Assembly: GCA_018901125.1 (NCBI GenBank)
Contig: JAHIFE010000024.1
Coordinates: forward strand, 1 to 60,380
Reading direction: 5' to 3'
DNA: 60,380 bases
Source of the DNA: Pseudomonadota bacterium
GTDB taxonomy: Bacteria > Desulfobacterota > Desulfobacteria > Desulfobacterales > RPRI01
Part shown: positions 3,930-22,379 of the stretch, piece after piece
How positions within the stretch are numbered: the first letter of the stretch is position 1
Layout of the letters: each line of letters opens with the position of its first letter
Translations under genes and position numbers: made by a program
The notes under the pieces: model-generated
Told to the model about the DNA's origin: nothing
Seen by the model: the letters and a program-made list of their open reading frames with translations, nothing else
The model's database searches: none

Positions 3930-5414
3930 ATGATGAAAACAACTTATTCTGCTATCGCAATATTTTTTTTGACAATATTATTTTTCTTCTCGAGCAGCTT
4001 TGCCCTTTCTTCTAAATCAGACATCCTCTTTGTGCTCGACAACTCAGGATCGATGAAAAAAAATGATCCTGAGTTCTTAACTCGAAAGGCGGTTACAAAC
4101 CTTATTGAAGGGTTAAACAAGGATTCAAGAGTTGGGTTTGTTATTTTTGATAATAAGGCTGACCTTGCAATGCCTCTTACTTCCATTGTGAATCCCAACC
4201 TGGGAAAGGATGTAGCGAATACGATGGGAAAGCTTGTTTACAACGGCAAGTATACAAATATTCCGACAGCTATAGAAAGGGCCATCTATGACCTGAAACA
4301 GAATGGGAGAAAGGATGCCGAAAAACTGATTGTTTTCATGACTGACGGATTTATAGATACCGGGGATGCAAAAATAAATGGTGAGCGGGGAAAGTGGCTT
4401 AAAGAGGAACTTACTCTGGAGGCAAGGAATGCGGGGATAAGAATTATCAGCGTGGCATTTACCGAAGAGGCGGATTTTGAACTTATTCAGACATTGGCAG
4501 TAAAAACCGGGGGTGGATACTATCGTGCCATAAAAAATGAAGATCTGCACAATGTGTTCGGCAATATTCAGCAAGCTATACTCACACCTCAGACAACGCA
4601 AAAGGAGAAAGCCACGCTCCAGACAAAACAAGAACCAAAAGCAGAAAAAGATGTTGTATCAAAGAGCTTGCTGGTTATTTCAGTCGTTGGCCTGATCGTT
4701 CTGGGGATAGTGATAATAGCAGTGATTTCCAGAGGCAGGAAGAGAGAAGCTAATAATATTAGATCTGAACTTATTGGAGTCCCTGATAAAAAGCAGCCAG
4801 CTATTCCTGACGCAATACTCGAAGATATGGAGTCAATAACCGGCAGGAAAGAGATCCGGCTATTCAAGAAAGAAATGACGGTTGGCCGCGCTGTTGACGT
4901 CGGGAAGCCATCGGTGGATATTGCCATTCCTCAAAATACGGTGTCAGCACTTCACGCCACTATCGAATACCGGGACAACAGCTTTTTTGTTATAGACTGC
5001 AGAAGCACAAACAAGACATATCTTAACAATCAGGTCTTGCCTTCAGACATTGAACAGAGGTTGAAATCAGGAGATATAATCACTTTTGACAAGTATAAAT
5101 TCCGGTTAATCATTAAGGAACAGACCGGTAAGAGCGGTACGGTTCTTCGGCCTGCAGCTGCGGGAGGTACAATCATCCGCCCCAAGGGTGCGCCACCGGA
5201 ACCTAATCATCTGCCACCTACATCCGAGGCAGGGCTTCCACAATATGCTCAGTCAGACAAGGTTGAAAGAGAAACACGTTTAAAACCAAATGTATGCGAA
5301 ATACATCCGAGCTATAAGGCAACAGAATTTTGCCCGGTTTGTAAGAAGGGATATTGCACGGAGTGCATGATCGAAAAAGACGGGAAAAAGATATGTCGGA
5401 CATGTGCTTCATAG
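3930..5414 (+). CDS. Membrane VWA-FHA-zinc-finger protein
   Basis: A 494-residue protein with an N-terminal signal/anchor (hydrophobic residues about 5-25). A von Willebrand A domain follows, with the metal-site motif DNSGS at 37-41 and the later MTDGF motif. A transmembrane helix lies near residues 247-268 (LLVISVVGLIVLGIVIIAVI) and a basic stop-transfer RGRKR comes next. An FHA domain sits at about 308-398 (MTVGRAVDVG, NTVSALHATIEY, RSTNKTYLNN). The C-terminus is a B-box-like Cys/His finger (CEIHP, FCPVC, YCTEC, ICRTC). The predicted topology places VWA outside and FHA plus finger inside. It is the first gene behind the sigma54 promoter. ATG 3930 and ATG 3933 both fit the AAGGAG site. VWA plus kinase plus PP2C sets are known regulatory triads; the exact role here is unknown. 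Confidence 0.88.
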   Translation: MMKTTYSAIAIFFLTILFFFSSSFALSSKSDILFVLDNSGSMKKNDPEFLTRKAVTNLIEGLNKDSRVGFVIFDNKADLAMPLTSIVNPNLGKDVANTMGKLVYNGKYTNIPTAIERAIYDLKQNGRKDAEKLIVFMTDGFIDTGDAKINGERGKWLKEELTLEARNAGIRIISVAFTEEADFELIQTLAVKTGGGYYRAIKNEDLHNVFGNIQQAILTPQTTQKEKATLQTKQEPKAEKDVVSKSLLVISVVGLIVLGIVIIAVISRGRKREANNIRSELIGVPDKKQPAIPDAILEDMESITGRKEIRLFKKEMTVGRAVDVGKPSVDIAIPQNTVSALHATIEYRDNSFFVIDCRSTNKTYLNNQVLPSDIEQRLKSGDIITFDKYKFRLIIKEQTGKSGTVLRPAAAGGTIIRPKGAPPEPNHLPPTSEAGLPQYAQSDKVERETRLKPNVCEIHPSYKATEFCPVCKKGYCTECMIEKDGKKICRTCAS

Positions 5415-5483: not shown

Positions 5484-5525
5484 GTTTAAGTAAAAAATAA
5501 ATATCCAACATAGAAAAGGAGCAAT

Positions 5526-5924
5526 ATGAAAACATTCGAGAGACTTCAAAACATTATAGCTGAACAATTTGGCGTGAATCCGGATGATGTGACAAATAGC
5601 GCTAACTTTACAGATGACTTAGGAGGCGACGCAGCAGATGTCATGGAACTTGTAATGGAGATTGAAAGCGAGTTTGACATAAGCATCAGCACACCAGAAC
5701 AGATCAAGACAGTAGGCGATGCTTTAGCCGTGGTGGAGAGACTCACAAATACTGTTCAATCCGAAACTGAAAATAAACTGAACCACGTAAGAAGAACTAT
5801 CCAAATACTTGAGATGGATATACGGCAATCTCAAGCACGAGGAGACTTTGTACGCGCTGAACAATTGGAGATGGAGCAGCGTAAATATCAACAGATTCTT
5901 GATGGTCTTGAGAAGAATACGTGA
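5526..5924 (+). CDS. Acyl-carrier-like protein lacking the phosphopantetheine serine, with UVR-like C-terminus
   Basis: A 132-residue protein. Residues 1-75 align by eye with acyl carrier protein (FGVNPDDVTNSANFTDDLG, ELVMEIESEFDISI). The attachment motif DSL is replaced: the sequence reads GGDAADVMEL, with Ala at position 36 where Ser carries the 4'-phosphopantetheine. It therefore should not carry acyl groups. Residues about 88-130 form a charged helix (IRQSQARGDFVRAEQLEMEQ) resembling the UVR motif of ClpC and its adaptor McsA. The ribosome binding site AAAAGGAG precedes ATG 5526. Position in the train with a Clp unfoldase and ClpP makes an adaptor or scaffold role attractive, but that is inference. 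Confidence 0.8.
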   Translation: MKTFERLQNIIAEQFGVNPDDVTNSANFTDDLGGDAADVMELVMEIESEFDISISTPEQIKTVGDALAVVERLTNTVQSETENKLNHVRRTIQILEMDIRQSQARGDFVRAEQLEMEQRKYQQILDGLEKNT

Positions 5925-5955: not shown

Positions 5956-7626
5956 ATGCCAATATCATGTGTGGTTGGATTACACAACTGGGATGGGTGT
6001 AAATGCAGAAAATGCGGCAAGGTTCGTGATGAAGGACACGATTGGAGCAAGGACTGTGAAAAATGCGCAAGGTGTGGCGTAACTCGGCAGAACTCCCACA
6101 ACTGGAAGGGCTGTAAATGCGAATTATGTGGTAAGACCCGAGATCAGGATCATGACTGGGTGAAGGACTGTGAGCGATGCTGGAAATGTGGCGCAACACG
6201 CAAGGATGCCCATGACTGGAAGGCCGACTGTGAGCACTGTAGCCGATGTAGCGTTACACGTAGTAATACACACCAATGGGACGGCTGCAAATGCATTAAG
6301 TGTGGTAGTTTCAGAGATCAGGATCACGATTGGAGTAAGGATTGTGAAAGGTGCTCTCGATGCAACGTGACCCGGCAGAATGCCCACAAATGGAATGGCT
6401 GCACGTGCGTTACATGCGGTAAGACCCGCGAAGGTGGACATGATTGGTGGAACAAACCTGGAACTTGCACGATCTGCGGGCAAGAAAGGCCACGGATCAA
6501 TTTCAATATGTCCGCTCTTGGCAATTCGGAAGCAGCCCGTCAGTTCACAACGCGCCATGCTTGCATTACCAAGACACTTATTGTGGATTCCGAACAGTCG
6601 ACACCCGTCATTATCGATCTAAATACCGGCAAATCAACGGCTATGCTTCCCATAGGAGAATTTATTGAGTTTACCGGATTCGACAAGGGAATCAATTCAA
6701 TTCGCACGGACAACGGATGGGCAGTTATCCATCATGCCGTCAATTCTAATGATATAGGATTAATCCAAAGGGTTATTGATCTGAAGGCCGAACTCGATGT
6801 CGTTGACGGAAAAGGATGGACTCCAATGCACCACGCCGCATGGATAGGAAACGGAGATATCGTGCGTCTGCTCCATAAGCATGGAGCGCCTTTAAACGTT
6901 CTCACATACAAGGATGTGTTGTCGCCGTTGCATACGGCAATTGCAGTGGATGCCCCCGATGCGGCTGATGCACTGCTGGCTTGCGGAGCAGACAAGGAAG
7001 TCAAGTCGAAGGGCGATGTTCGTCCCCTCCATCTTACCGCGATGAAAGGCCGGAAGGAAATAGCGATGCTTCTTTTGGATTACCAGGCTGAGCTTGATGC
7101 ACTGGAGGTAAATCAGAGTACAGCTCTCCATGCCGCTGCTTATTACGGACATGAGGGGATCGTTCGAATACTGCTTGCTGCCGGCTGTGCGCCCGGGCTT
7201 TCCGATCTGCGAGGCAATACGCCGTTGTCATTAGCGAAACAGGGAAAACATCAGGCTATTGTTACTCTGTTATCTGACAAAATAGCAGGCGATGCCTCTC
7301 AAACGGACAGTGGCGGTAGCATGACCGACGACATCGTAGGTATGACGGCTGAGCAATTGCTGCAACAACTGGAACAGTTCGCTCGCGAAGGCCTGCCAAT
7401 CATTTCAAACTCCAAGAAAGAGCACTTTGCAAATATCGTCGAGATCATGGATTTTGTAGGTGCAACACGTCACGGGTCCCAAGGGCAACAGGGCACAGAC
7501 GGAAGGTACTACATTTTTGATAATTATACTCTTCCAAACGGAGCGAAAGTCAAGGCAGGATACGAAGACAAAGCGTCACGGGTCTCAAGGGCAACAGGGC
7601 ATAGATTGAAGGTGCTACATCCTTGA
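5956..7626 (+). CDS. Cys/His-Trp repeat plus ankyrin protein, copy 1 (C-terminus rearranged)
   Basis: A 556-residue protein. The first ~185 residues are nine tandem units of 18-20 residues with the pattern H-x-W, then C-x-C-x-x-C or C-x-x-C-x-x-C, then an Arg (for example HDWSKDCEKCARCGVTRQNS). They look like small zinc-binding knuckles. Ankyrin repeats run from about residue 255 to 440 (KGWTPMHHAAWIGNGDIVRLL). A tail of unknown fold starts near MTAEQLLQQLEQF. Strong ribosome binding site AGGAGGG. The reading frame ends abnormally because a 106-base tandem duplication (7468-7573 repeated from 7574) shifts the frame; the likely ancestral C-terminus survives out of frame to 7738. It is a tandem paralogue of the next gene. 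Function is unknown; ankyrin and zinc repeats suggest protein binding. Confidence 0.85.
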   Translation: MPISCVVGLHNWDGCKCRKCGKVRDEGHDWSKDCEKCARCGVTRQNSHNWKGCKCELCGKTRDQDHDWVKDCERCWKCGATRKDAHDWKADCEHCSRCSVTRSNTHQWDGCKCIKCGSFRDQDHDWSKDCERCSRCNVTRQNAHKWNGCTCVTCGKTREGGHDWWNKPGTCTICGQERPRINFNMSALGNSEAARQFTTRHACITKTLIVDSEQSTPVIIDLNTGKSTAMLPIGEFIEFTGFDKGINSIRTDNGWAVIHHAVNSNDIGLIQRVIDLKAELDVVDGKGWTPMHHAAWIGNGDIVRLLHKHGAPLNVLTYKDVLSPLHTAIAVDAPDAADALLACGADKEVKSKGDVRPLHLTAMKGRKEIAMLLLDYQAELDALEVNQSTALHAAAYYGHEGIVRILLAAGCAPGLSDLRGNTPLSLAKQGKHQAIVTLLSDKIAGDASQTDSGGSMTDDIVGMTAEQLLQQLEQFAREGLPIISNSKKEHFANIVEIMDFVGATRHGSQGQQGTDGRYYIFDNYTLPNGAKVKAGYEDKASRVSRATGHRLKVLHP

Positions 7627-7753: not shown

Positions 7754-9130
7754 ATGCCAATATCGTGTTTGTTTGGATTTCATGACTGGAGCGGCTGTAG
7801 GTGCACTAAGTGCGGTAAGGCACGCGAGGAAGGTCACGACTGGCGTTGCGACTGTGAAAAATGCTCGGGATGCGGTGCGACCCGGCAAAACGCCCACAAA
7901 TGGAATGGCTGCAAATGTGGGTTATGTGGTAAAACGTGCGATGAAGGTCATGATTGGAGCAAGGACTGCGAGCAGTGTGATAAATGTGGCGCGACCCGGC
8001 AGAACATTCATAAATGGAATGGTTGCAAATGTTCGAAGTGTGGTAAAACCCCCGACGAAAACCATGATTGGAGCAAGGACTGTGAGAAATGCGCTAAGTG
8101 TGGTGCCATCCGACAGAATGCCCACAAATTAGATGGTTGTGTATGTGAATCCTGCACGAAAACCGAAATGTTTTTTGAGGCTTGTAAAAAGGGGTTATCG
8201 AGTGAGATGGAGTTTCTCATAACCAATGGTGTGAATGTAAATACAATAATAAATAGTGGCGAAACCGTTTTGCATACTACTGTTTATGGAGGTAATAACA
8301 ATATCGTAAAGTTTCTTATTGCCAAAGGCGTTGATGTAAATGCTAAAGACAATAGAGGTATTTCTCCACTTCACATTGCTGTTCGGAAAGGCCGGAAAGA
8401 TATTGCGGAATGTCTTATTGCAAAAGGTGCAGATTTCAATATTAAAGACAACGATGGCAATACTCCGCTGCATTGGGCCGCTCAGAAAGGCCGTAAAGAT
8501 ATCGTAGAGTTTCTCATTGCCCGCGGAGCGGATATAAATGCCAAAGATAATAAAAATTTTATCCCTTACGATATTGCCAATCAGTGTGGCCATAAAATAA
8601 TTGTGAAACTTCTCGATATTGCTCGCGAGAGGAAACAATTCAAATTTGTGGAAGCTCTTATCGCAAAAGGGACTAATGTGAAAACACAGAATATCGATGG
8701 CTTCACTCATCTGCACGATGCTGCCAATAAAGGACTCAAAGATAAAGTTGAACTTCTCATAGCCAAAGGTGCTGATGTTAATGCCAAAGGATATGCCGGT
8801 CTCACTCCATTGTATATTGCAGTTTATAGAGGCCAAAAAGATATTGTTGAACTTCTTATAGCTAAAGGCGCAGATGTTGATGCCAAAATAGTCGACGGAT
8901 CAACCCCTTTAAGTTTTGCTTTAAATAACTACTCAAAATATTATATGGAATTAACCAAGCGGCCTGATATAAAAAAAAGGACTGACATAGAAATAAATAA
9001 CGATAAGGGCAAAATCTTTGAAATTCTTTTTGCTGCAATAAAAGTCGATGAAACATCGCCAAAAATTTTAAATATATTTCCGGAATCACGAGATCCCGGG
9101 GCGATGACCGGTGGTAGTGGCTGGAGATAG
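7754..9130 (+). CDS. Cys/His-Trp repeat plus ankyrin protein, copy 2
   Basis: A 458-residue paralogue of the preceding gene; both begin MPISC with a similar following sequence. Seven Cys/His-Trp units fill about residues 9-135 (HKWNGCKCGLCGKTCDEG, HDWSKDCEQCDKCGATRQNI). Around eight ankyrin repeats follow, such as DNDGNTPLHWAAQKGRKDIV and repeated LLIAKGADVNAK blocks. The end (FPESRDPGAMTGGSGWR) differs from copy 1. GAAGGAG precedes ATG 7754. The last codons reach the possible start of the radical SAM gene, so the two are probably translationally coupled. That coupling raises the idea that this Cys-rich protein is a substrate or partner of the radical SAM enzyme; no direct evidence. Confidence 0.87.
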   Translation: MPISCLFGFHDWSGCRCTKCGKAREEGHDWRCDCEKCSGCGATRQNAHKWNGCKCGLCGKTCDEGHDWSKDCEQCDKCGATRQNIHKWNGCKCSKCGKTPDENHDWSKDCEKCAKCGAIRQNAHKLDGCVCESCTKTEMFFEACKKGLSSEMEFLITNGVNVNTIINSGETVLHTTVYGGNNNIVKFLIAKGVDVNAKDNRGISPLHIAVRKGRKDIAECLIAKGADFNIKDNDGNTPLHWAAQKGRKDIVEFLIARGADINAKDNKNFIPYDIANQCGHKIIVKLLDIARERKQFKFVEALIAKGTNVKTQNIDGFTHLHDAANKGLKDKVELLIAKGADVNAKGYAGLTPLYIAVYRGQKDIVELLIAKGADVDAKIVDGSTPLSFALNNYSKYYMELTKRPDIKKRTDIEINNDKGKIFEILFAAIKVDETSPKILNIFPESRDPGAMTGGSGWR

Positions 9131-10406
9131 TAACCATATATCTGGCTGGGGCAAATGTATGCGCAGATTTATAAATCCTAAAATAAGCAGGAGATATTCC
9201 GCATTATCGGATGAATTGGAAATACTGCCTCCTGTATCGTCTGCCTGTATTAAACAGGTAATACTGAACGTAGCTTCGATCTGTAACATGTGTTGCCCCT
9301 ATTGTTTTGCCAGCCAGGGTGCTTATGGGCTTTCTTGTCCGAATTTCATGGACGCTGAGCCCGTTCTTGTTTTTCTTAAACGTCTTGCGATTAAACGTCG
9401 TGGTATTGAACAAATCAAATTTTTTGGTGGTGAGCCATTTCTGAATGTTCAATGCATTGAAATTATCTGCTCTGCTTTTCATCGCTGGTTTGCTTGCGGA
9501 GAAATTGTCAAAATGCCTTTTTTCCATATCAACACAAATCTTACGCTATTGGATCAAGCCATTGTTGAACTGATACAAACATACAACATATCAATTACCG
9601 TGGGGCTTGACGGCCCGCCAAAAATCCATGACCGTCTGCGCGTATATCCGGATGGAAGGGGATCTTTTGAATTGGTTGATAAGCATATTATTAAGCTTGT
9701 CACGATTTGCGGTCAGCCCAGATCGATTGAGGCTGTATATACGGCGGAACATGCCCGTTTGGGGGTGTTGCCCTCTGCTCTTCATGAGTTTTTTGGCGAG
9801 AGATACGGTGAGCGCAATTTCATCATACACCCTTCAGTATCACCTTTTATGGGTTTACCCGCCCTGAACAAAGGCAAGAACTTTGATGACCAAGAGTTGG
9901 ATAAACAGATGCTTTATGATGCTTTTTTTGACTATGGTCGTTACGTTATGATGAAAAAGCTTTGTGATAATCCGGCCCTTCCTAAGGATGGTGCCAGCTT
10001 GTTAAAAAACCCACAAATTGATTGTCAATGCGATCAATGCCTGGAGGATATATTTATCACTACGAGCGGTGATATCTACCCCTGTTCCGGCTTTGTTGGC
10101 CGTGAGGAGTTTCGGATCGGGAATATTGGGGACGATGGACAGGGCTTTGATGCCTCTCTGGAATTGATTCGAGGGAGACTGTCCAATAGTCGCAGATCTA
10201 CCAACCAGACATGTAAAACCTGTCCTATCTCCAAAACATGCAAGACTTGTCCGGCGGCAATGCTACAAAGAAATGGCTCCATTCATGTTCCGGACGGATA
10301 TCTATGTACTTATCACATTGGTTTTACGGAAGGAATGGTATCAGGACTGGAAAATTGTTCCGGATCTATCAATTTGGAAGATAGGGGCGTAAGTGACGAT
10401 ATCTAA
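9111..10406 (+). CDS. Radical SAM/SPASM-domain enzyme
   Basis: Up to 431 residues. The radical SAM cluster motif CxxxCxxC is in ASICNMCCPYCFASQG, and the GGEPFLN strand follows. The C-terminal third is Cys-rich in the SPASM style: CQCDQC, then TTSGDIYPCSGF, then CKTCPISKTCKTCPAAM and a last Cys near GYLCTYH, which would hold auxiliary Fe-S clusters. SPASM enzymes such as anSME and PqqE modify peptides or protein side chains. The start is uncertain: GTG 9111, GTG 9117 or ATG 9159; none has a strong ribosome binding site, consistent with coupling to the upstream gene. It sits between Cys-rich ankyrin genes and kinase genes, so a protein in this train is the likely substrate (inference). Confidence 0.9.
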   Translation: MVVAGDSNHISGWGKCMRRFINPKISRRYSALSDELEILPPVSSACIKQVILNVASICNMCCPYCFASQGAYGLSCPNFMDAEPVLVFLKRLAIKRRGIEQIKFFGGEPFLNVQCIEIICSAFHRWFACGEIVKMPFFHINTNLTLLDQAIVELIQTYNISITVGLDGPPKIHDRLRVYPDGRGSFELVDKHIIKLVTICGQPRSIEAVYTAEHARLGVLPSALHEFFGERYGERNFIIHPSVSPFMGLPALNKGKNFDDQELDKQMLYDAFFDYGRYVMMKKLCDNPALPKDGASLLKNPQIDCQCDQCLEDIFITTSGDIYPCSGFVGREEFRIGNIGDDGQGFDASLELIRGRLSNSRRSTNQTCKTCPISKTCKTCPAAMLQRNGSIHVPDGYLCTYHIGFTEGMVSGLENCSGSINLEDRGVSDDI

Positions 10407-10456: not shown

Positions 10457-13400
10457 ATGTCCTTTCTAAACAATTTATTCGGCAAAGACCAAAAGAAAGT
10501 CATAAAGGAGTCTGTTGATGGATCGCGGGAACTATGCGAGACGTGCCTATCACAAAATCCTCAGGGCACGCCTCCTCCGGCCACTAAACATGGGCCTTTC
10601 TTCCTCGGTGTCGGTGATACTATCCTATCTGCTTATCGAATAGAAGATATTATTACTACCGGAGGTATGGGGCTTATCTTCGTAACAACACATCTGGGCT
10701 GGAAAATTAAGGTGGCCATAAAGGTTCCAACTGAGGAGGCTCTTTCCTGGCCGCATTATGCAAAAAGAGTCCGGAAGGAAGCCGAGGCGTGGATCAATCT
10801 GGGGCTTCATCCTAATATCGCATACTGTTATTTCGTGCGCAATATTGAGAACATCCCATGCTTTTTTGTAGAATATGTCGATGGAGGTAATCTTACTACA
10901 TGGATAGAGAATCGCAGATGTGCTGACCTTAAAACAGGTCTCGATGTAGCCATCCAGTTCTGCCATGGAATGGCCTATGCCCACAGCAAAGGGATGATTC
11001 ACAGGGACATCAAGCCGGCAAATATACTTATGACTGAAGATGGCATCCTCAAGGTGACAGACTTCGGTATAGCCAATATGGGAAAAGACGGGTGCGTATG
11101 TGGCCCCTCAGCGAGTTTCGATCCGACAAAAACTGTGGGCTTTATGGGTACGATGCCTTATGCCTCTCCTGAACAACTGAGGGACACTCATGCTGTTGGT
11201 ACAGCAGCTGATGTGTATTCATTTGGAGTATGTATCTGGGAGATGCTGCTGGGGAGAAGACCCCGTTCCAATGCGTGGGAGGATAGTCAGCTGCCTGATC
11301 TCAGAAAAGCAAGATCGGACCTTCCTGATAATTTATATCCTCTCTTAACGCAACTGGTATCCTTTGATTCCGAAGCTCGGGATGCTCTGGGAGGTTTCGG
11401 GGCATTGAGGGAGCGTTTCAAGGCAATCTATAAAGATCTCTTTCACGAACCATCTCCTCACAGTGTTCTCGAGGATCTCAATCTTCTGGCAGATGGTTTT
11501 AACAACCGGGGGGTTTCCTATATAGAACTGGGCAGGGAGGGAGAAGCCCTTTATTGCTGGCAACAGGCTCTTGTTGTTGACCCACATCATTTGGAAAGTA
11601 CTTTCAATCATGGATATTTTGAATGGCTCAGAGGCTTGCCTTACCATAAGGCTTTGGAAGCCCCACTGTCCGCCTTGAGGGGGACTCATAAGGAAAGTCC
11701 TGACTATTGGCGACTTCTTGCCTGGCTTCTCTATGAACGAGGAGAGATGGAGGCCATCGATGAAATACAGAGATCAGCTTACAAGGTTACGGACACAGAC
11801 TTTTTGAACGCTCTGGACGATCAGAAAAGGCCTAAAAAGAAACTTTTGAGAAACTTTAGAGGCCATACTGCCTGGGTGCGCAGAGTATGCTTTTCCCCCG
11901 ATGGGCTATTCGTCTTATCCTGCGGCGGTGATAAAACTATCAGGCTCTGGGATGTCACAACAGGTCAGGAGGTAAGGCGATTTGAGCTTACGGAAGCTGC
12001 CATACGGACTATAGCCTTCTCTCCTGACGGCAGGCATGTAGTTTCGGGAAGTGACGACGGAATCTTGCGACTCTGGGAGGTTGCAACTGGTCAGGAGATA
12101 CAAACGCTGCATGCCACCCAGGGGCTCCTGCTTTCCGTAGCGTATTGTTCGGACGGCATACATGTCTTATCTAACAGCAACGGCAATGCTTTTGTTCTGT
12201 GGGATATATCGTTGGGCAAACAAATCCGTAGGTTCGAAGGCCACGAGAACCAAGTAGCCTCAATCGTTTGCTCAGCAGACGGAAGGTATGTCCTTTCCGG
12301 CAGTGATGACACTACCGTACGTCTATGGGAGTTGGATAGTGGTCTGGAAGTAATGTGTTATGTGGGGCATTCCGATAACGTGCTTTCCGTTGCTTTTTCG
12401 CCTGACGGCAGATATGCGGTTTCGGGAAGCGATGACAGTACTATCCGGCTCTGGGATATTGTTGTGGGCTCTGAAGTCAGGAGGTTCGACAGCCATTTGG
12501 CGTCAACAACTTCAGTCGCCTTTTCGCCTGATGGTAAGCACTTGCTTTCAGGAGACAAAAGCAGCATAGTCCGTCTGTGGGATGTGTCCTCCGGAATGGA
12601 AATAGCGCGATTTGAAGGACATTCGGGTAATGTGCTTTCTGTCGCTTTTTCACCAGGCGGCAAGCATGCGGTTACCGGGAGTCAGGGCGAGAGCATATGC
12701 CTTTGGGACATCTCTGAATCTCAACAATATCATAGGTTGGAGATATTCCCTGTCTTATCAAGGCCGCGTTCATCCTCGCTGCTGATAAGACAGAACTTTG
12801 AAATGCGACGACTGCTTAAGGACGCAAATAATGCCCTGAAAAAGGGAGAATTACGCCAGGCTTATGAATTGGCTGGGCAGTTACGATCCATTGCAGGATA
12901 TGAAAGGGATAAAGAGGCATTGGGACTTGCTGCTCTTGCTGTGAAGAAAGGCCATGCCAGAGTGAGGAACCTGAAGGCTTTTTGGCACCTTAGAAAGTTT
13001 GAAGGCAATCCCTGGGAACCGGTCAGTATTGTTTTTTCACCGGACGGTCGGTATGTCATTTCGGGAGGCGAGGACAAGAGAATTAATATCTGGAACCCGA
13101 TGACCGGCCAAAAGGTAAGGCAATGTGAAGGGCATTCCGGTCCTGTGACCACAGTAGCCTGTTCCCCGGATGGTTGGCACATTCTCTCGGGAAGTCAGGA
13201 CAAAACCATCAGAATGTGGGATGTGATGACCGGAGAGGAAATACGACGGTTTGAAGGTCATCTTGATACTGTTGGAGCTGTTGCCTTCTCTCCGGATGGC
13301 AGCATTATTGTATCCGGCGAAGGTCACAGGGTAATTGGCCAGGGCCGGTCGTGGAGCGGGGTAGACAATGCCGTCCGCCTTTGGGATGTATCGACTGGTC

Positions 13401-13927
13401 TGGAAGTAAGGCGACTTGAGGGGTTGCGAGGTTCGGTATATTCTGTTTCCTTCTCCCCGGACGGACGTTTTATCGTCTCGGGTAGCGCAGACAAAAGCGT
13501 TGTTCTCTGGGATAACATTACATGCAGGGAAATACGACAATTCGCAGGACATACTGCCGCTGTGAACTCTGTTGCCTTCTCTCCAGATGGCCATTTTATT
13601 CTTTCAGGGAGTGAGGATAATACCATCCGCCTCTGGGACATCATTACAGGCCAGGAAGTGCAGCGGCTTGAAGGGCAGGCGAACCGGGTGTATTCGGTTG
13701 CCTTTTCCCCCGACGGCCAATATGCTGTGTCAGGTGGAGGAGACAGGACTGTCCGCCTGTGGGATCTGGCTGCCGGTTATGAAGTAGCGCGGTTCGAAGG
13801 ACATTCAAACTGGGTATATTCCGTCGCTATTTCTCCCGACAGTAGATTTGTGGTCTCGTGTGGAAAAGATAATGCAGTTTGCCTGTGGGAACTCGACTGG
13901 GCATGGGAGTTTAATATGGAAGTTTGA
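10457..13927 (+). CDS. Ser/Thr protein kinase with TPR-like linker and two WD40 propellers (1)
   Basis: A 1156-residue protein. The kinase domain spans about 58-320, with K89 in VAIKV, H182-R183-D184 in the catalytic loop and D202 of DFG; the glycine loop is unusual (ITTGGMGLIFV). A TPR-like helical segment follows (FNNRGVSYIELGREGEALYCW). It then has seven WD40 repeats (about 470-760), a helical linker (KKGELRQAYELAGQLR) and seven more (about 850-1150), enough for two seven-bladed propellers. Typical units read VAFSPDGRYAVSGSDDSTIRLWD. No transmembrane helix is seen. AAGGAG lies before ATG 10457. It is followed after 21 bases by a paralogue of the same architecture. Kinase-WD40 fusions are known in several phyla; two side by side with a PP2C suggest sensing by the propellers coupled to phosphorylation. 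Confidence 0.93.
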   Translation: MSFLNNLFGKDQKKVIKESVDGSRELCETCLSQNPQGTPPPATKHGPFFLGVGDTILSAYRIEDIITTGGMGLIFVTTHLGWKIKVAIKVPTEEALSWPHYAKRVRKEAEAWINLGLHPNIAYCYFVRNIENIPCFFVEYVDGGNLTTWIENRRCADLKTGLDVAIQFCHGMAYAHSKGMIHRDIKPANILMTEDGILKVTDFGIANMGKDGCVCGPSASFDPTKTVGFMGTMPYASPEQLRDTHAVGTAADVYSFGVCIWEMLLGRRPRSNAWEDSQLPDLRKARSDLPDNLYPLLTQLVSFDSEARDALGGFGALRERFKAIYKDLFHEPSPHSVLEDLNLLADGFNNRGVSYIELGREGEALYCWQQALVVDPHHLESTFNHGYFEWLRGLPYHKALEAPLSALRGTHKESPDYWRLLAWLLYERGEMEAIDEIQRSAYKVTDTDFLNALDDQKRPKKKLLRNFRGHTAWVRRVCFSPDGLFVLSCGGDKTIRLWDVTTGQEVRRFELTEAAIRTIAFSPDGRHVVSGSDDGILRLWEVATGQEIQTLHATQGLLLSVAYCSDGIHVLSNSNGNAFVLWDISLGKQIRRFEGHENQVASIVCSADGRYVLSGSDDTTVRLWELDSGLEVMCYVGHSDNVLSVAFSPDGRYAVSGSDDSTIRLWDIVVGSEVRRFDSHLASTTSVAFSPDGKHLLSGDKSSIVRLWDVSSGMEIARFEGHSGNVLSVAFSPGGKHAVTGSQGESICLWDISESQQYHRLEIFPVLSRPRSSSLLIRQNFEMRRLLKDANNALKKGELRQAYELAGQLRSIAGYERDKEALGLAALAVKKGHARVRNLKAFWHLRKFEGNPWEPVSIVFSPDGRYVISGGEDKRINIWNPMTGQKVRQCEGHSGPVTTVACSPDGWHILSGSQDKTIRMWDVMTGEEIRRFEGHLDTVGAVAFSPDGSIIVSGEGHRVIGQGRSWSGVDNAVRLWDVSTGLEVRRLEGLRGSVYSVSFSPDGRFIVSGSADKSVVLWDNITCREIRQFAGHTAAVNSVAFSPDGHFILSGSEDNTIRLWDIITGQEVQRLEGQANRVYSVAFSPDGQYAVSGGGDRTVRLWDLAAGYEVARFEGHSNWVYSVAISPDSRFVVSCGKDNAVCLWELDWAWEFNMEV

Positions 13928-13948: not shown

Positions 13949-16900
13949 ATGTCGTTATTTTCGAACATAAAGTATCTGCTTAACAAAGATAAAGATATTA
14001 ATCACATTGGACCGGATAGACAAGAAGCATTCCAAACCCTTCCGAAAGCTGTCCTTTCTCCCGGTAAAGAAGATAAGGAGAAAGTTAGCGGCGGCACGGT
14101 AGTAAGGCAGGAAAAAGCGCTTCAGCATCAGAATACGGTAGTCCGTCAAAAAGATCCTCAGCTTACGAGCCTTGAGATGCCTGAAGAGGGCGGATGGGCG
14201 TGCAAGGCAGCAACGGTCTATCACACAGGGGATCTGATAGCAAACCGTTACAAGGTTGAGAATGTTCTTTCAGGCGCAATGGGCTATGTCTATATCTGTA
14301 AGGACACCAGCCAAAGGATCATGTTTGCGATCAAGCAGCCGAAAACAGAGATGCTTGCCGATCGTGAGCTGTTCTCACGAGTATTGCTGGAGGCAGACGC
14401 ATGGACCAAACTTGGGATGCATCCGAATATTGCCTACTGTTACTTTGTAAGAGTGATAGAGGAAGTGCCCTATATATTCATCGAGTATGTAGATGGAGGC
14501 AGTCTTGAAGACTGGATAAGCGATCGCCGGTGTGCGGACTATAAGACAGGCATCGATATGGCCATACAGTTCTGTCATGGGCTTGAGCGAGCCCATGACA
14601 GGGGCATGATCCACCGTGACATAAAACCGAAGAATATATTGGTAACAAAAGACGGGCAGGTGAAAGTCACAGATTTTGGTCTTGTAGGAGGCGGAAGGGC
14701 AGGGGGAAAGGTAAGCACAATGCCTGGAGATCAGCATGGGACGCGGATGGGAGACATAATGGGCACCCCAGCGTATATGCCGCCTGAGCAGTGGAATGAC
14801 CCGAGGCAGAAAAGCGCTGAAGCGCCGGAAGGCGTGTGGTATGAGTCTGATGTGTATAGTTTTGGAATCTGCATGTGGGAGATGTTCTGCGGCAGAAAAC
14901 CCTATGAGGTATCCATAGGAGTCAAGGGAGGGCCGCCTGATCCGAGAGAGCTGAAGAGGGATATACCTGATGGATTGAGGGAGTTACTTTTAGATAGCGT
15001 TGCGCTTGAGCGGGGGAAAAGACAGGCAGACTTCAGAGATTTGAAGGAGGAGTTGAACAGGGTATACCGTGAGCTATACGGAGGAGATGCGCCGCATTAC
15101 AAGCTTGAGCTTCATGACACAACGGCTGATGAACTGAACAACCAGGGTTATTCCTTCCTTGAGCTTGGCAGGAAAGAAGAGGCAAGAAAGTGTTATGAAG
15201 AGGCGGTGAAGGCAAGCAAAATCCATCCTGAGGTGGTGTTTAACCTTGCTCTCCTTCAGTGGCGTGATAATAAAATAGATGATTTAGAAGTGATAAGGAG
15301 AATCAGGAATTGTTTGAGTAACCCTGTCGTAAGTAAGGAAAAGATAGCAGAGTTGCTGGCTTATATCCATGCAGAGAGGTTTGACCTTAGCTCTGCAAAA
15401 GAGGAGCTCAGTGAATACTCTGGGAAATTCGATAAGCTATATCAAGGCAGAATAATAAGTACTATAGGATGTCGCTCCTTCACGGGACATAGTGATTCTG
15501 TCACTTCCGTGAGTCTGAGCTACGACGGCAGATATGCCTTATCGGGGAGTCGAGACAATACGCTTAAGCTCTGGGAGGTAGAGACAGGAAAGTGTCTGCA
15601 CACCTTCGAGGGACATATTGATAGTGTCGAATCCGTGAGTCTAATGGCTGATGGTAAATATGCCTTATCGGGAAGCAAGGACAAAACGCTTAAGTCTTGG
15701 GAGGTAGAGACAGGAAAGTGTCTGCACACCTTCGAGGGGCATAGTAACTGGGTAACTTCCGTATGTCTGAGCACCGACGGAAGGTATGCAGTTTCGGGGA
15801 GTATGGACAAGACGCTTAAGCTTTGGGAGATAGAGACAGGAAAATGTCTGCGCACCTTCGAGGGCCATAGTCATTGGGTCAGTTCCGTATGTCTGAGCTC
15901 CGATGGCAGATATGCCTTATCAGGGAGTTACAATACGCTTAAGCTCTGGAAGATAGAGACAGGGGAATGCCTGCGCACTTTCGAGGGCCATGGTTATGGT
16001 GTCAATTCCGTATGTCTGAGTTCCGACAGCAAATATGCCTTATCGGGGAGTTCGGACAATACGCTTAAGCTCTGGGAGGTAGAGACAGGAAAATGCCTGC
16101 GCACCTTCGAGGGTCGTAATGAGCGTTTCGAATCAGTCAGTCTGAGTGCCGATGGAAGATATGCCTTATCGGGGGGTGATACGCTTAAACTCTGGGAGAT
16201 AGAGACAGGGAAGCTTCTGCGCACCGTCGAGGGTCACGGTAGTCATGTCCAATCTGTTATCCTTAGCGCCGACGGCAGGTATGTCTTATCAGGTAATTTG
16301 GACAAGACGCTCCGGCTTTGGGATGTGAATTTAAACAATGATGCATATATCTGTGACTTTCAGGTGACTGCCTTTAAGGGCTTTGAAGAGATTAAGGGAG
16401 CGCAAGATGAGCTAAGTTTGGCAATTACCCAGGCAGAGAGGTTGACAAATGAGGGGAAACACACGAAAGCCTTTGCTATGCTTTATAGCGCATGGGAGAG
16501 GGATAATTTTAAGTATAATAAGCGTTTGATGGAAGTATACTTAATGCTCTATGCCAGGGCAAGCACAAGGACCTTTTCATTCGGTTATTTGGAAAACACC
16601 TTCGAGGGCCATAGTGATTTTATCTTATCCGTGAGTTTTAGTGCTGACAGCAGATTTGCCTTATCGGGTAGTTTTGACAAAAAGCTCAAGCTTTGGGAGG
16701 TGGATACAGGGAAATGCCTGCGCACATTCGGGGGCCAAAGTAACTGGGTTAAGTCCGTGCGTCTTAGCGCAAACGCCAGTTATGCCTTATCGGGCAGTGA
16801 GGACAAAACGCTCAGACTTTGGGAGGTGGAGACAGGTAAGTGTTTGCGCACCTTCGAGGGCCATAGTAGTGATGTTAACTCCGTGAGCCTCAGCGCCGAC

Positions 16901-17491
16901 GACATATATGCTTTATCGGGGAGCCGAGACAAAACTCTAAAACTCTGGGAGGTTGAAACAGGAAAGTGCCTGCGCACTTTCGAGGGTCATAGTGATATTG
17001 TCTACTCATTAAGCCTGAGCATTGACAGCAGATATGTCTTATCGGGTAGTTATGACAAAACGCTTAAGCTCTGGGAGGTAGAGACAGGGAAATGCATACG
17101 TACCTTCGAGGGCCATGATGGATGGGTCCGTTCAGTGATTCTGAGTGCCGATGGCAGATATGTCTTATCGGGTAGTTATGACAAAACGCTTAAACTCTGG
17201 GATGTGGAAACAGGTAAATGCTTGCGCACCTTCGAGGGCCATAGTAAAAGCGTTAATTCCGTGAGTCTGAGCTCCGATAGCAGATATGCCTTTTCGGGGA
17301 GTTCGGACAATACGCTTAAGCTTTGGGAGATAGAGACAGGTAAGTGCCTGCACACTTTCGAGGGCCATAGTGGTATTGTCGACTCTGTGAGTCTGAGCGT
17401 TGACGGCAGATATGCCTTATCGGGAAGTTGGGATAAAACGCTTAAACTCTGGCGGCTGATATGGAAGCTGGAGTTCGACGAGAACAAATAG
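13949..17491 (+). CDS. Ser/Thr protein kinase with TPR-like linker and two WD40 propellers (2)
   Basis: A 1180-residue paralogue of the previous gene. An unstructured N-terminal stretch of about 95 residues precedes the kinase domain, with K129 in FAIKQ, H222-R223-D224 and D242 of DFG. A TPR-like segment (LNNQGYSFLELGRKEEARKCY) leads to 7 WD40 repeats, a helical spacer (about 805-870) and 7 more. The repeats are strikingly uniform in protein (NTLKLWEVETGKCLRTFEGH) and in DNA (unit of about 126 bases), unlike the more divergent repeats of the first kinase. That uniformity indicates recent repeat expansion or gene conversion. The ribosome binding site is AAGGA before ATG 13949. Its C-terminus (WKLEFDENK) resembles that of its neighbour (WAWEFNMEV). 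Confidence 0.93.
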   Translation: MSLFSNIKYLLNKDKDINHIGPDRQEAFQTLPKAVLSPGKEDKEKVSGGTVVRQEKALQHQNTVVRQKDPQLTSLEMPEEGGWACKAATVYHTGDLIANRYKVENVLSGAMGYVYICKDTSQRIMFAIKQPKTEMLADRELFSRVLLEADAWTKLGMHPNIAYCYFVRVIEEVPYIFIEYVDGGSLEDWISDRRCADYKTGIDMAIQFCHGLERAHDRGMIHRDIKPKNILVTKDGQVKVTDFGLVGGGRAGGKVSTMPGDQHGTRMGDIMGTPAYMPPEQWNDPRQKSAEAPEGVWYESDVYSFGICMWEMFCGRKPYEVSIGVKGGPPDPRELKRDIPDGLRELLLDSVALERGKRQADFRDLKEELNRVYRELYGGDAPHYKLELHDTTADELNNQGYSFLELGRKEEARKCYEEAVKASKIHPEVVFNLALLQWRDNKIDDLEVIRRIRNCLSNPVVSKEKIAELLAYIHAERFDLSSAKEELSEYSGKFDKLYQGRIISTIGCRSFTGHSDSVTSVSLSYDGRYALSGSRDNTLKLWEVETGKCLHTFEGHIDSVESVSLMADGKYALSGSKDKTLKSWEVETGKCLHTFEGHSNWVTSVCLSTDGRYAVSGSMDKTLKLWEIETGKCLRTFEGHSHWVSSVCLSSDGRYALSGSYNTLKLWKIETGECLRTFEGHGYGVNSVCLSSDSKYALSGSSDNTLKLWEVETGKCLRTFEGRNERFESVSLSADGRYALSGGDTLKLWEIETGKLLRTVEGHGSHVQSVILSADGRYVLSGNLDKTLRLWDVNLNNDAYICDFQVTAFKGFEEIKGAQDELSLAITQAERLTNEGKHTKAFAMLYSAWERDNFKYNKRLMEVYLMLYARASTRTFSFGYLENTFEGHSDFILSVSFSADSRFALSGSFDKKLKLWEVDTGKCLRTFGGQSNWVKSVRLSANASYALSGSEDKTLRLWEVETGKCLRTFEGHSSDVNSVSLSADDIYALSGSRDKTLKLWEVETGKCLRTFEGHSDIVYSLSLSIDSRYVLSGSYDKTLKLWEVETGKCIRTFEGHDGWVRSVILSADGRYVLSGSYDKTLKLWDVETGKCLRTFEGHSKSVNSVSLSSDSRYAFSGSSDNTLKLWEIETGKCLHTFEGHSGIVDSVSLSVDGRYALSGSWDKTLKLWRLIWKLEFDENK
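15480..17450 (+). repeat. Homogeneous WD40-coding DNA repeats
   Basis: Within the second kinase gene the same DNA phrase, close to CTTAAGCTCTGGGAGGTAG followed by AGACAGG and then TTCGAGGGCCATAGT, recurs about 14 times at roughly 126-base spacing. It is interrupted by a non-repeat spacer at about 16340-16600. Identity between units is much higher than in the neighbouring kinase. Confidence 0.8.
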
Positions 17492-17544: not shown

Positions 17545-18315
17545 TTGAAGAGATTATTTCAAAGAACAAAAGAGTTCATTATTGAGTTCGCGTTTGGAAT
17601 GACTGATGTTGGCATGAATAGAGACAGCAATGAGGACGCCTTTCTGTTGCTGCCGGACAAACAGTTATATATAGTTTCAGACGGCATGGGCGGGCATAAT
17701 GCCGGCGAGGTTGCAAGCCATACAGCGGTCAATGCATTGGAGACTTATTATGCCCAGCTTGCCATATCAACAAACAATGCGGAAGCAATAAAAGAGACAA
17801 TGATCGATGCTATTTCAGAGGCCAATAAAAAGGTCTGGGATATGAGCCGGTCGAGAAGTGAATATTCCGGCATGGGCTGCACAGTTGCAATGGTTTTTAT
17901 TGACGGAAACAAGATTCATGCCTGCCATATCGGAGATTCAAGAGTTTATGTTATTAACAGGAAAGAAATAGTTCAGGTGACAACTGATCATTCTGTTGTC
18001 ACGGAGCTGGTACAAGCCGGAACAATGACCAAGAAAGAAGCAAGGTTCAGTGATCTGAAGAACCAGCTTACCCAGGCTATCGGTATATCTTCTTCTATAA
18101 GACCCGGGTATAATATGCGCCAGGTTGAGAAGTGCGATATCGTGCTTCTCTGCACCGACGGGCTTTGGGACATGCTGGAGGATGATAAAATTTTTAAGGC
18201 AGTCCATAAAGGCGGCATGCCTGAAGAAATCTGCGCCAGGCTGATCCATATGGCAAACGAAGCAGGTGGGGAAGATAATATAACCGTTATAGTTGCCAGG
18301 ATATCCGGCAAATAA
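17545..18315 (+). CDS. PP2C-family Ser/Thr protein phosphatase
   Basis: A 256-residue PP2C. The metal-binding motifs are in order: RDSNEDAF near the N-terminus, VSDGMGGH, GDSRVY, LLCTDGLWD and GGEDNITVIV. It starts at TTG 17545, supported by CAGGAG at 17533-17538 and by the lack of another start before the first motif. Soluble and of normal size. It lies 53 bases after the second WD40 kinase and 20 bases before the FHA kinase. It is the only phosphatase in the train and is probably the counterpart of its three kinases. Confidence 0.95.
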   Translation: MKRLFQRTKEFIIEFAFGMTDVGMNRDSNEDAFLLLPDKQLYIVSDGMGGHNAGEVASHTAVNALETYYAQLAISTNNAEAIKETMIDAISEANKKVWDMSRSRSEYSGMGCTVAMVFIDGNKIHACHIGDSRVYVINRKEIVQVTTDHSVVTELVQAGTMTKKEARFSDLKNQLTQAIGISSSIRPGYNMRQVEKCDIVLLCTDGLWDMLEDDKIFKAVHKGGMPEEICARLIHMANEAGGEDNITVIVARISGK

Positions 18316-18335: not shown

Positions 18336-19850
18336 ATGAAGCTGCGTCTGGAAGTAATCAAGGGCCCGGAAACCGGCAGATATTTTGAGTTCACTCAGCC
18401 CGACACCTTTATTGTAGGGCGTGGGGGGAAAGACAGACCTGTCCACTTTAAGCTTTCAGATGATGATCCATATGTTTCAAGACAACACTTCATGCTTGAA
18501 ATAGCTCCGCCGCGAATCTATTTTTTCGATCTTAGGAGCACAAATCCGCCTTGTGTCAACGGGGTTGAAGTGAAAGAGTCTGAGCTCAAGGAAGGCGACG
18601 TGATAGAGGTTGGCTATACGCAAATTAAGGTTCGGATCTTTCCGGAGTTACAGCTAAAACGCATCCCATTCTATTGCGAAAGGTGCAGGGAAACTCTTGT
18701 ATTTGAAATGATGGAGGGAAAAACCTCTCCTGTCATTTGCGCATCATGCGAAGATGAGATAGAAGAAAAAAAGAGGAAAGAATCGGTTGGGATTAGATTC
18801 ACTGTTAACTGCAAATGCGGGAAGGACTTATCAACGATTGCCAACAGCGATGGAAGGGCGCATGAGCTGACTGGCGTTGTTAGCTATTGTTGTGACGGAT
18901 GTGTACAGGAAATGATGGCAGGCAAGAACGCCGGCAAGATGGTAGATGGCTACACGGTAATCAAAGATCTGGGCGCCGGAGGAATGGGCAGGGTCTATCT
19001 GGTCCGTCAGAAAGAAACCGGAAGAGTAATGGCGTTGAAGCAAATGCTTAACCTGAAGGACGAAGAGTCGATGAAACGGTTCTCCAGGAGAGAAATGAAG
19101 TATATGAAGGAAATTACTCATCCTAATGTCGTTAGATTCATAGATAGTGGCGCGACACAGGAAGGGCCGTATATAGTGATGGAACTGCTCTCCGGTGGGA
19201 ACCTTGATAAATTGATGGACCCCGTAAAGGGATTTATGAGCCCTGATCTTGCAGTGCCATATATTATCGATGCCATCAAAGGCCTTGAATTTATTCATGC
19301 CCATAAATTTGTGCACCGTGATCTCAAACCGGAGAATATCCTTCTGCAGGAGAATAATAACGGCAGGCTGATACCCAAGATAAGCGATTTCGGTCTTGCA
19401 AAGAAATATTCCGAGGCAGGCGGTTCTTTAATGACACAGGCCAATGTAGGTATGGGTACGATAATATATATGTCGCCCGAGCAGATAAAAGATACCAGAA
19501 GTGTGAGAGAACCGGCTGACATATACTCGATGGGTGTTACCCTTTATTATCTGCTGACCGGTAAATTTCCATATCATTTTCCAACACAACGGGAAATTGA
19601 AAAGTTTCTGAATGAAAACAGGGCAAAGGCTCAAAATATGAAAGAGGCACTGGATCTGATTATGCGGATAGAGGATATGAAACATCCCCATGTGATAATT
19701 TTGACACAGGAGCAGATACCCATTCAGAAGCGCAATCCGGGTATCCCTGTTAAATTGGCAACTGTTGTTCATAGGGCAATAAAGAAAGAAATTTCTGAGC
19801 GTTATCAGACTGCCGCAGAGCTAAGGTGTGCGCTGGAAAGCGTGATATAG
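18336..19850 (+). CDS. FHA-zinc-ribbon Ser/Thr protein kinase
   Basis: A 504-residue protein. FHA domain at about 1-102 (FIVGRGGKDRP, YVSRQHFMLEI, RSTNPPCVNG). Cys pairs C114/C117 and C135/C138 form a zinc ribbon, and a second Cys set (CKCG near 159, CCDGC near 185) follows. The kinase domain starts near 205 (VIKDLGAGGMGRVYLV), with K235, H327-R328-D329 and D351 of DFG. Unlike the WD40 kinases it has a canonical glycine loop. It starts at ATG 18336, 20 bases after the phosphatase. Its FHA domain should bind phosphothreonine on a partner or on another kinase of the set, which would give a cascade; the partner is not known. Confidence 0.94.
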   Translation: MKLRLEVIKGPETGRYFEFTQPDTFIVGRGGKDRPVHFKLSDDDPYVSRQHFMLEIAPPRIYFFDLRSTNPPCVNGVEVKESELKEGDVIEVGYTQIKVRIFPELQLKRIPFYCERCRETLVFEMMEGKTSPVICASCEDEIEEKKRKESVGIRFTVNCKCGKDLSTIANSDGRAHELTGVVSYCCDGCVQEMMAGKNAGKMVDGYTVIKDLGAGGMGRVYLVRQKETGRVMALKQMLNLKDEESMKRFSRREMKYMKEITHPNVVRFIDSGATQEGPYIVMELLSGGNLDKLMDPVKGFMSPDLAVPYIIDAIKGLEFIHAHKFVHRDLKPENILLQENNNGRLIPKISDFGLAKKYSEAGGSLMTQANVGMGTIIYMSPEQIKDTRSVREPADIYSMGVTLYYLLTGKFPYHFPTQREIEKFLNENRAKAQNMKEALDLIMRIEDMKHPHVIILTQEQIPIQKRNPGIPVKLATVVHRAIKKEISERYQTAAELRCALESVI

Positions 19851-19887
19851 GCGAAAGCAATGAATACATTTATGAGGTGAATTGAAT

Positions 19888-22332
19888 ATGCGTTCTTTAT
19901 CCGTTTCTTCTCAAATAGTTTATAGCCTTGCCGCAGGCGAGGCCCAGGCGCTTCATAGTAAGGACATTGATAGCGAACATTTGTTCCTCGGGCTATGCAA
20001 GCTTGAAGATGTATTGCATCTCGAAAGAACCGCTATATCCGATATAGATGAAAATCAGTGGCAGCAGGTGCTGCAGGATGTTAAGGAATTCAGGGATTCT
20101 CTTTCGCTGTCGGATTTTGATCCGAAAAAGGCCCGCAGACGGTTAAGAAAAATATTGCATGAGTCAGAGCCAGGCGCAGAAAAGTTTTCAGGCCATCGCA
20201 CGCAACGTTGCAGGGATATGTTTTCAATCGCCGAGAACATTTGCATACAGACATCTGCAGGAGATATTCTTCCTAAACATCTTTTAGCCTCTATTTTAGG
20301 GCAGTACTCACTGCCTTTGGATCGGCTTTTCTCCGAACTTTCGGTTAAAAGGACCGACTTGTTAAAGGTGATGGAGGTATCCGCACGGGCGGACAATGAT
20401 GCGCTTGGGATTATTATTCATGACGCTCAGAAAGAAGAGGCTAAAGGCGAAGAGAAGAAGATGCAGCCGAACAAAAAGAGCGATACCCCCATATTGGATA
20501 AATTCGGCAGAGATATTACTAAATTGGCGAGGGAAGGAAAGCTCGATCCATCTATAGGCAGAGGAAAGGAGATAAAGAAAATTGCGCAGATTCTTATGCA
20601 GAAGAAAAAGAACAATCCGATACTCATTGGGGAAGCAGGTGTCGGTAAAACTGCGGTTGTTGAGGGATTTGCCATTAAAATAGCCCAAGATGGCGCTTTG
20701 CAACAGATCAGAAATTTCAAGGTTCTGGAACTCAATATGGGATCTCTTGTAGCTGGTACCAAGTACCGGGGTGAATTCGAGGAAAGACTGGAAACAATCC
20801 TGAACGAGGCATCCTCAGACCCTGACATCGTATTGTTTATAGATGAGATACATACTATGGTAGGCGCAGGAGCCGCCGGTGGATCTATAGATGCCGGAAA
20901 CATTTTAAAGCCGGCCCTTGCAAGAGGTGCGATAAAATGTATCGGGGCTACGACTACTGCCGAGTATCGTAAGTATATTGAAAAGGATCCTGCATTGGAG
21001 CGAAGGTTTCAGGTGGTCTGGATAGATGAGCCCACCAAAGACGAGGCTATACAAATTCTTAAGGGTCTCAGGCCGAAATTCGAGGAGCATCATGGTGTTA
21101 AAATCCCCGATGAGGTAGTCGAAAAGGCAGTGGAACTGTCTATGCGTTATCTCACGGATTTCAGACTGCCGGACAAGGCGATAGATATCATAGACCAGGC
21201 ATGTGCAAGGGTTATGCTGAAGACTTTTTCTCCAGGAACCGTTCCAACAAAAATGAATGTGGAACTGGCGATAGAGGATATCGCACGGGTTGTTTCCGAA
21301 AGGTGCAGGATACCTGTTATCAGCCTGACAACAGAAGACAAGAGCAGGCTTCTGAAGATAGAAGATTACCTTAAACAGAGGGTGATGGGTCAGAATCATG
21401 CTGTTAAAGAAATTGGAAAGGCGATCAGGTCTGCAAAGGCAGGACTTAAGGATCCGAATAAGCCGATTGTATTTCTCTTTGTCGGCTCAACGGGGACAGG
21501 CAAGACTGAGCTTGCAAAAGCTCTCGCAGAGTTTTTGTTTTATGATGAAAACCGCCTCATTACTTTTGATATGTCCGAATATCAGGAAAAACAGTCAATA
21601 GCAAAACTGATAGGCTCGCCGCCCGGCTATATAGGTTATGACGACGAAGGGCAGCTAACCGGAAAAATCAGGACAAATCCTTACTCGGTTATTCTTTTTG
21701 ATGAGATAGAAAAAGCACATCCAGATATCTTTGATATTTTCCTTCAGATATTTGACGAAGGAAGATTGACCGATGCTCATGGAAGACGGGTCAATTTCTC
21801 CGAATCGGTGGTTATTCTTACATCAAACCTCGGAAGCGGTTTTGGTCAAAACAGCGGTGAGAGAAAGCCGATAGGTATTGATATAGACAAGGCATATTCG
21901 GATGAAAAAGAGACAGTGTCAGGCCTTGGTATAGAAGAAGATTCAAAAAAATGGAAAGATTATGAAGATCAAATTAAGAAGGTAATTGGTAATGCATTCA
22001 GGCCTGAATTTTTAAACAGGATACAAAAGAGGATTACATTTTATCCTCTTGGAAAAGGAACAGTTAAGCAGATAATATCTGTAAAAATCCTTGCGGAGCT
22101 AAATAACAAGTTAAAATCAAAGGGAATCCAAGTGGTTCTTTCTCAGGATGCTCTGGATGCTCTGATAGAAAAGGGATTTAGCGAGGTGTTTGGTGCAAGA
22201 GAAATAAAGCGCGTTTTTGATCAGTATATATCCGAGCCATTATCTCAAATGATTCTTGAAGGTGAGATAAAATCAGGGCAGGAAGTAAAGATTTCCATGT
22301 CCTCAAATGGACTCAGGTTTGATATTTTTTAA
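19888..22332 (+). CDS. ClpA/ClpC-type AAA+ unfoldase
   Basis: An 814-residue Hsp100 protein with an N-terminal Clp-N region and two AAA+ modules. Walker A1 is GEAGVGKTAVVEG, with ATTTAEYRKYIEKDPALERRF following; Walker A2 is GSTGTGKTELAKALAEF, and the ClpB-D2-type small domain closes the protein. The joint between modules is short, so the long ClpB coiled coil is absent. After NLGSGFGQNSGERKP comes IGI, in the place where ClpA and ClpC carry the IGL/VGF loop that docks on ClpP. Start chosen at ATG 19888 with GAGGTGA upstream. clpP follows after 47 bases. It should deliver proteins, perhaps marked by the neighbouring kinases or by the acyl-carrier-like protein, to ClpP. Confidence 0.92.
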   Translation: MRSLSVSSQIVYSLAAGEAQALHSKDIDSEHLFLGLCKLEDVLHLERTAISDIDENQWQQVLQDVKEFRDSLSLSDFDPKKARRRLRKILHESEPGAEKFSGHRTQRCRDMFSIAENICIQTSAGDILPKHLLASILGQYSLPLDRLFSELSVKRTDLLKVMEVSARADNDALGIIIHDAQKEEAKGEEKKMQPNKKSDTPILDKFGRDITKLAREGKLDPSIGRGKEIKKIAQILMQKKKNNPILIGEAGVGKTAVVEGFAIKIAQDGALQQIRNFKVLELNMGSLVAGTKYRGEFEERLETILNEASSDPDIVLFIDEIHTMVGAGAAGGSIDAGNILKPALARGAIKCIGATTTAEYRKYIEKDPALERRFQVVWIDEPTKDEAIQILKGLRPKFEEHHGVKIPDEVVEKAVELSMRYLTDFRLPDKAIDIIDQACARVMLKTFSPGTVPTKMNVELAIEDIARVVSERCRIPVISLTTEDKSRLLKIEDYLKQRVMGQNHAVKEIGKAIRSAKAGLKDPNKPIVFLFVGSTGTGKTELAKALAEFLFYDENRLITFDMSEYQEKQSIAKLIGSPPGYIGYDDEGQLTGKIRTNPYSVILFDEIEKAHPDIFDIFLQIFDEGRLTDAHGRRVNFSESVVILTSNLGSGFGQNSGERKPIGIDIDKAYSDEKETVSGLGIEEDSKKWKDYEDQIKKVIGNAFRPEFLNRIQKRITFYPLGKGTVKQIISVKILAELNNKLKSKGIQVVLSQDALDALIEKGFSEVFGAREIKRVFDQYISEPLSQMILEGEIKSGQEVKISMSSNGLRFDIF

Positions 22333-22379
22333 CTGAAAAGGTGTTATAAATTAATTAAATGAGATAGGAGCGTGTGACT

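Follow-up and report, generated by a model that had tools for sequence, protein, structure and literature searches.

An acyl-carrier-like protein without the phosphopantetheine serine and with a predicted helical hairpin, a candidate docking scaffold in a signaling and protease locus

Acyl carrier proteins (ACPs) bind their partners through the acidic face of helix II, and the phosphopantetheine prosthetic group often assists this docking. ACPs also moonlight as subunits of unrelated machines, in which the site of the prosthetic group is normally intact. For E. coli ACP, residues D35 and D38 were required for binding of IscS, and an S36T change led to a loss of IscS binding, indicating that Ser36 matters too (PMC13343975). 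Since IscS binding needed Ser36, docking by an ACP that lacks the prosthetic group is not guaranteed. Our literature search returned nothing on point for ACPs without the serine or for an ACP combined with UVR.

Here we describe an ACP-like protein encoded in a window of 60,380 nucleotides, which is the whole stretch of DNA that was analyzed. The protein resembles AcpP of type II fatty acid synthesis in its fold, length, core of residues 1-73, and acidic helix II, and relatives are about 42-54% identical to it. Unlike AcpP, it has Ala36-Ala37 in place of Ser-Leu, a 59-residue tail predicted to be helical, and a region after helix II that is two residues shorter, and no fatty-acid-synthesis genes are among the examined neighbors of its gene. 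The likeness we propose is to MukBEF, NFS1-ISD11, and the Ycf2-FtsHi motor, where an ACP fold sits within a complex outside fatty acid synthesis; however, the solved entries of these complexes are labeled as ordinary ACPs, whereas our protein lacks the serine for attachment and has a predicted hairpin fused to it. The UVR-containing Clp partners McsA, chloroplast CLPF, and EXECUTER offer a further comparison, since our small protein is predicted to end in a helical hairpin and its gene shares a run with that of a Clp unfoldase. In contrast to those proteins, the tail shows no match to UVR by sequence, the unfoldase is of the ClpA kind and lacks an M-domain, and contact with Clp is putative. 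Lastly, the locus recalls TIGR04069 (peptide-maturation ACP-related protein) in pairing an ACP-related protein with a radical SAM protein, but our protein scores far under that family's cut-off and ordinary ACP models fit it better. With a probability of roughly 55%, we propose that the protein is a non-carrier ACP serving as a protein-docking scaffold in a signaling and protease locus.

An intact open reading frame spans 5526-5924 on the + strand; it begins with ATG and encodes a product of 132 amino acids. Its features are as follows.

5514 to 5521, + strand: AAAAGGAG, a likely ribosome-binding site that precedes the ATG; read from the sequence
5526 to 5744, + strand: ACP domain, residues 1-73; Pfam, NCBIfam, and PDB matches, AlphaFold2 (AF2) model, and fold search
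5628 to 5639, + strand: D35-A36-A37-D38 at the site of the phosphopantetheine motif DSLD; read from the sequence
5712 to 5837, + strand: predicted long helix, residues 63-104, in which ACP helix IV continues into the tail; AF2, block mean pLDDT 90-98
5847 to 5915, + strand: predicted returning helix, residues 108-130, closing the hairpin (the "UVR-like" tail); AF2, not UVR by profile

The ACP domain is matched by Pfam PF00550 (PP-binding) at E 1.9e-11, with 44.5 bits, above the cut-off of 20.8. The NCBIfam ACP subfamily model NF002148 gave 77.5 bits against a cut-off of 71, NF002150 was likewise over its cut-off, and a PDB sequence search returned ACPs, down to E 2e-14. Helix II and the core positions are conserved, including the acidic helix II residues D35, D38, E41, E45, E47, and E49; judged by sequence, the docking face appears largely preserved despite the loss of the serine. 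An earlier note on this DNA had claimed that the sequence of the ACP fold is preserved, which both the alignment and the confident predicted structure bear out.

As for the active site, DAAD (residues 35-38) aligns without gaps with the DSLD of solved ACPs, and both Ser36 and Leu37, which are present in 62 of 62 fetched ACP relatives, are replaced. The codons at residues 36-37 are GCA GCA. Because the change of Ser needs at least one base and that of Leu two, a single sequencing error is insufficient to produce Ala36-Ala37. The DSL motif had already been read as DAAD, and we find the same, with Leu37 lost besides Ser36; the further claim, that the protein could not be loaded, draws support from the alignment and the confident model. 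Given the missing attachment serine, the prosthetic group would be absent, and the ACP-like protein can presumably no longer take up phosphopantetheine. Its role is probably one of binding or scaffolding rather than that of a carrier. The genome holds a single copy of the ACP-like gene and two other ACPs with DSLD (L002, L003), so fatty acid synthesis would be independent of the ACP-like protein.

The AF2 input consisted of the 132-aa protein and three ACP relatives, with the tail modeled from a single sequence, and gave a mean pLDDT of 92.9 in which the tail was confident too. Structure prediction of the protein alone, one check suggested in the earlier note, yielded an ACP fold plus a helical hairpin. 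The predicted helices of the ACP domain span residues 3-15, 36-50, and from 63 on, and the 59-residue tail is predicted to extend the last of these as an antiparallel helical hairpin. Foldseek and VIA-align, in searches that covered the ACP part only, matched ACPs over about residues 1-75, and the structural neighbors include the ACPs in the MukBEF complex, in NFS1-ISD11 complexes, and in the Ycf2-FtsHi motor. A fold that is predicted to be intact could also serve a non-covalent binder of acyl groups, with a fatty acid or other ligand held in the ACP core and a role as a sensor; however, Leu37 is lost too, and we give this explanation a very slim chance.

The tail had been described as UVR-like. 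Pfam PF02151 (UVR) had no match to the tail at E<=10, either in an hmmscan of the tail alone or in a search of the genome, where the same model recovered two true UVR domains with E values of 1e-9 or below. Both of these searches use prefilters, and we ran a UVR profile of our own with the filters off. This profile, for which 24 sequences were taken from related genomes, all of them UvrB/UvrC-type and none McsA or ClpC, gave the tail 0.6 bits, a score equaled by 12.6% of shuffled tails. An ungapped position-specific UVR score, in the register around DFVRAEQL, placed the tail above most shuffles (p 0.0004 to 0.045, length-dependent), however, the log-odds on this same score were -1 to -6 bits as compared with +52 to +97 for true members. 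We do not count this score as homology because the log-odds are negative and the shuffled tails do not preserve helical periodicity. With Pfam silent and our own profile at the level of shuffles, we rejected the tail as a UVR domain and read it as a helical hairpin whose resemblance to UVR is due to chance or is very remote. Sequence homology to UVR therefore fell away, whereas the predicted hairpin shape is compatible with such a tail, and the original observation as a whole is partly confirmed: it holds except for the UVR part, which the sequence does not support. A PDB sequence search with the tail gave no match below E 0.2, and no second copy of the tail was found in the genome.

Searches of 96 relatives, 395 genomes from the phylum, and 380 from the order, overlapping samples that together make about 870 genome scans, turned up no full-length relative of the ACP-like protein, and neither did a GTDB contig scan or searches of viral contigs, plasmids, and phages. 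All homology matches that we inspected were ordinary ACPs covering the ACP part only. In a weakly resolved tree the ACP-like protein lies on a long branch and does not group with the ACPs of its order, and duplication of the genome's own ACP is not favored there as its origin. This position, together with the two active-site changes and the orthologues that were not found, would suit a decaying or functionless ACP copy, laterally acquired and heading for loss. However, the frame is intact and continues into a helical hairpin that is coherent in the prediction, the ribosome-binding site is kept, the codon-position composition resembles that of the neighbor genes, and helix II and the core positions are conserved, and we consider decay quite unlikely.

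The reading we prefer, a docking scaffold, leans on the gene neighborhood as well. The ACP-like gene belongs to a run of 12 co-directional genes from 1876 to 22973, with intergenic gaps of -20 to 143 nt, in the order FHA-GAF-sigma54 activator, VWA-FHA, ACP-like, two Cys/His-repeat-ankyrin, radical SAM/SPASM, two kinase-WD40, PP2C phosphatase, FHA-kinase, unfoldase, and ClpP. A promoter and terminator scan found sites no more numerous than chance expectation. The neighbors are listed below.

3930 to 5414, + strand: VWA-FHA protein that also weakly matches a B-box-like zinc finger, upstream neighbor of the ACP-like gene; Pfam
5956 to 7626, + strand: Cys/His-repeat and ankyrin protein, downstream neighbor; Pfam ankyrin, Cys repeats from the translation
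9111 to 10406, + strand: radical SAM/SPASM protein; Pfam, NCBIfam
10457 to 13927, + strand: Ser/Thr kinase-like N-terminus and WD40 repeats; Pfam WD40, blastp of the kinase region to kinase ORFs
13949 to 17491, + strand: second Ser/Thr kinase-like protein with WD40 repeats; same basis, Pfam WD40 and blastp of the kinase region to kinase ORFs
17545 to 18315, + strand: PP2C-type Ser/Thr phosphatase; NCBIfam Stp1 above cut-off
18336 to 19850, + strand: FHA and Ser/Thr kinase protein; Pfam
19882 to 22332, + strand: ClpA-type AAA+ unfoldase without M-domain; Pfam, NCBIfam, alignment with E. coli ClpA and ClpB
22374 to 22973, + strand: ClpP; NCBIfam clpP above cut-off, directly after the unfoldase

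The proteins at 5956-7626 and 7754-9130 are paralogues with N-terminal Cys/His repeats of the CxxCG-x-R-x-H-x-W type followed by ankyrin repeats, and their Cys-rich repeats matched no Pfam family at E 0.01. The FHA-kinase at 18336-19850 has a Cys-rich stretch between its FHA and kinase domains. The ACP-like protein had no match in a defense-system library, and the matches of neighbor genes to this library seem to reflect the general resemblance among kinase domains and among AAA domains.

The radical SAM/SPASM gene lies 3.2 kb downstream and, together with a weak match of the ACP-like protein to NCBIfam TIGR04069 (E 6.7e-5 and 23.3 bits, where the cut-off is 70), raises the idea of an ACP-related helper that partners the radical SAM/SPASM protein in a peptide-maturation system. 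However, ordinary ACP models score far better, the radical SAM/SPASM protein does not reach the cut-off of the peptide-maturase families listed, and no precursor peptide was identified, which makes this role very improbable in our estimation. The radical SAM/SPASM protein is rare among relatives, with one match, at 30% identity, in 95.

At the far end of the run, the RKPIGID sequence of the unfoldase aligns with RKSIGLI of E. coli ClpA and has no counterpart at that place in E. coli ClpB. The IGL/IGF loop is the ClpP-binding loop. With no M-domain, a sequence like this loop, and clpP as the next gene, the unfoldase plausibly forms part of a private ClpAP-like protease encoded beside the kinase, phosphatase, and FHA genes. 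A ClpA/C unfoldase encoded in the same train as the ACP-like gene had been noted earlier, and this held: the unfoldase is ClpA-type, and ClpP is also encoded in the same run. The N-domain of the unfoldase is weakly recognizable (Pfam Clp_N, E 0.035), and a single-sequence structure model of this domain alone was poor, with a pLDDT of 48.

This gene context, an unfoldase with a ClpP-loop-like sequence and ClpP in the same co-directional run, is the basis for viewing the ACP-like protein as a specific adaptor of the unfoldase-ClpP pair. The hairpin or the ACP face would dock on the unfoldase N-domain and bring substrates, perhaps phosphorylated ones. The predicted helical-hairpin tail agrees with this, as does the occurrence in chloroplasts of the UVR-bearing Clp adaptors or interactors CLPF and EXE1/2 (PMC8889267). 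However, the tail is without UVR homology, the unfoldase is without an M-domain, and about 14 kb and seven genes lie between the ACP-like gene and the unfoldase gene. In addition, in genome G308 the best kin of the unfoldase is encoded directly after a TPR-like kinase gene, with no ACP-like gene. We therefore regard an adaptor of the same-run pair as unlikely, if deserving of some weight, and as a shade less likely again the stronger statement that the serine-less ACP with its hairpin serves a kinase-linked ClpAP-like protease as its dedicated adaptor, in which case the ACP fold would be reused for proteolysis.

A docking scaffold fits best because the protein has lost carrier chemistry, retained the docking face, and gained a helical surface, and because the neighbors are concerned with signaling and proteolysis. 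We hypothesize that a divergent ACP lost phosphopantetheine uptake and works as a protein-docking module. The retained acidic helix II face would bind partners, the hairpin grown from helix IV would provide a second binding or dimerizing surface, and together the ACP domain and hairpin would form a scaffold within the product of the kinase, phosphatase, FHA, and ClpAP-like locus. What the analysis shows is ACP homology, the loss of Ser36 and Leu37, a predicted fold with its hairpin, and the gene context; expression and folding of the ACP-like protein, its binding to other proteins, and the choice of partners are inferred. Because the ACP-like protein is a single sequence so far, support comes from context and prediction. 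If the scaffold reading is true, a natural ACP that cannot be loaded and carries an interaction hairpin in a phospho-signaling and protease locus would separate docking from the carrier role, and it would show a route by which the ACP fold turns into a pure adaptor.

A divergent ClpA-like unfoldase without an M-domain adjoins kinase genes both here and on C71 of G308 (L115, L116), a distant genome of the phylum; ClpP follows the unfoldase in the window, and none was seen adjacent to the G308 unfoldase. From this one genome, we speculate that the kinase and the divergent ClpA-like unfoldase may be an older pairing to which the ACP-like protein is an addition. In genome G287, VWA-FHA, FHA, kinase, and PP2C genes lie together, with no Clp and no ACP-like gene. 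Genome G014 has a kinase match with no cluster around it, and a protein there that is 44% identical to the FHA-kinase at 18336-19850 (L073 5789-7198) is solitary, outside any such cluster.

Elsewhere in the window, a single ORF at 23102-26353 joins a secreted-looking N-terminus, ankyrin repeats, and a complete methionine-aminotransferase-like domain, and a nitrilase-like gene overlaps its end. Two very similar secreted-looking proteins of 436 aa are encoded at 35872-37182 and 55584-56894, and near them are the ORFs 34694-35872 and 37876-39066, which are apparently paralogous to each other.
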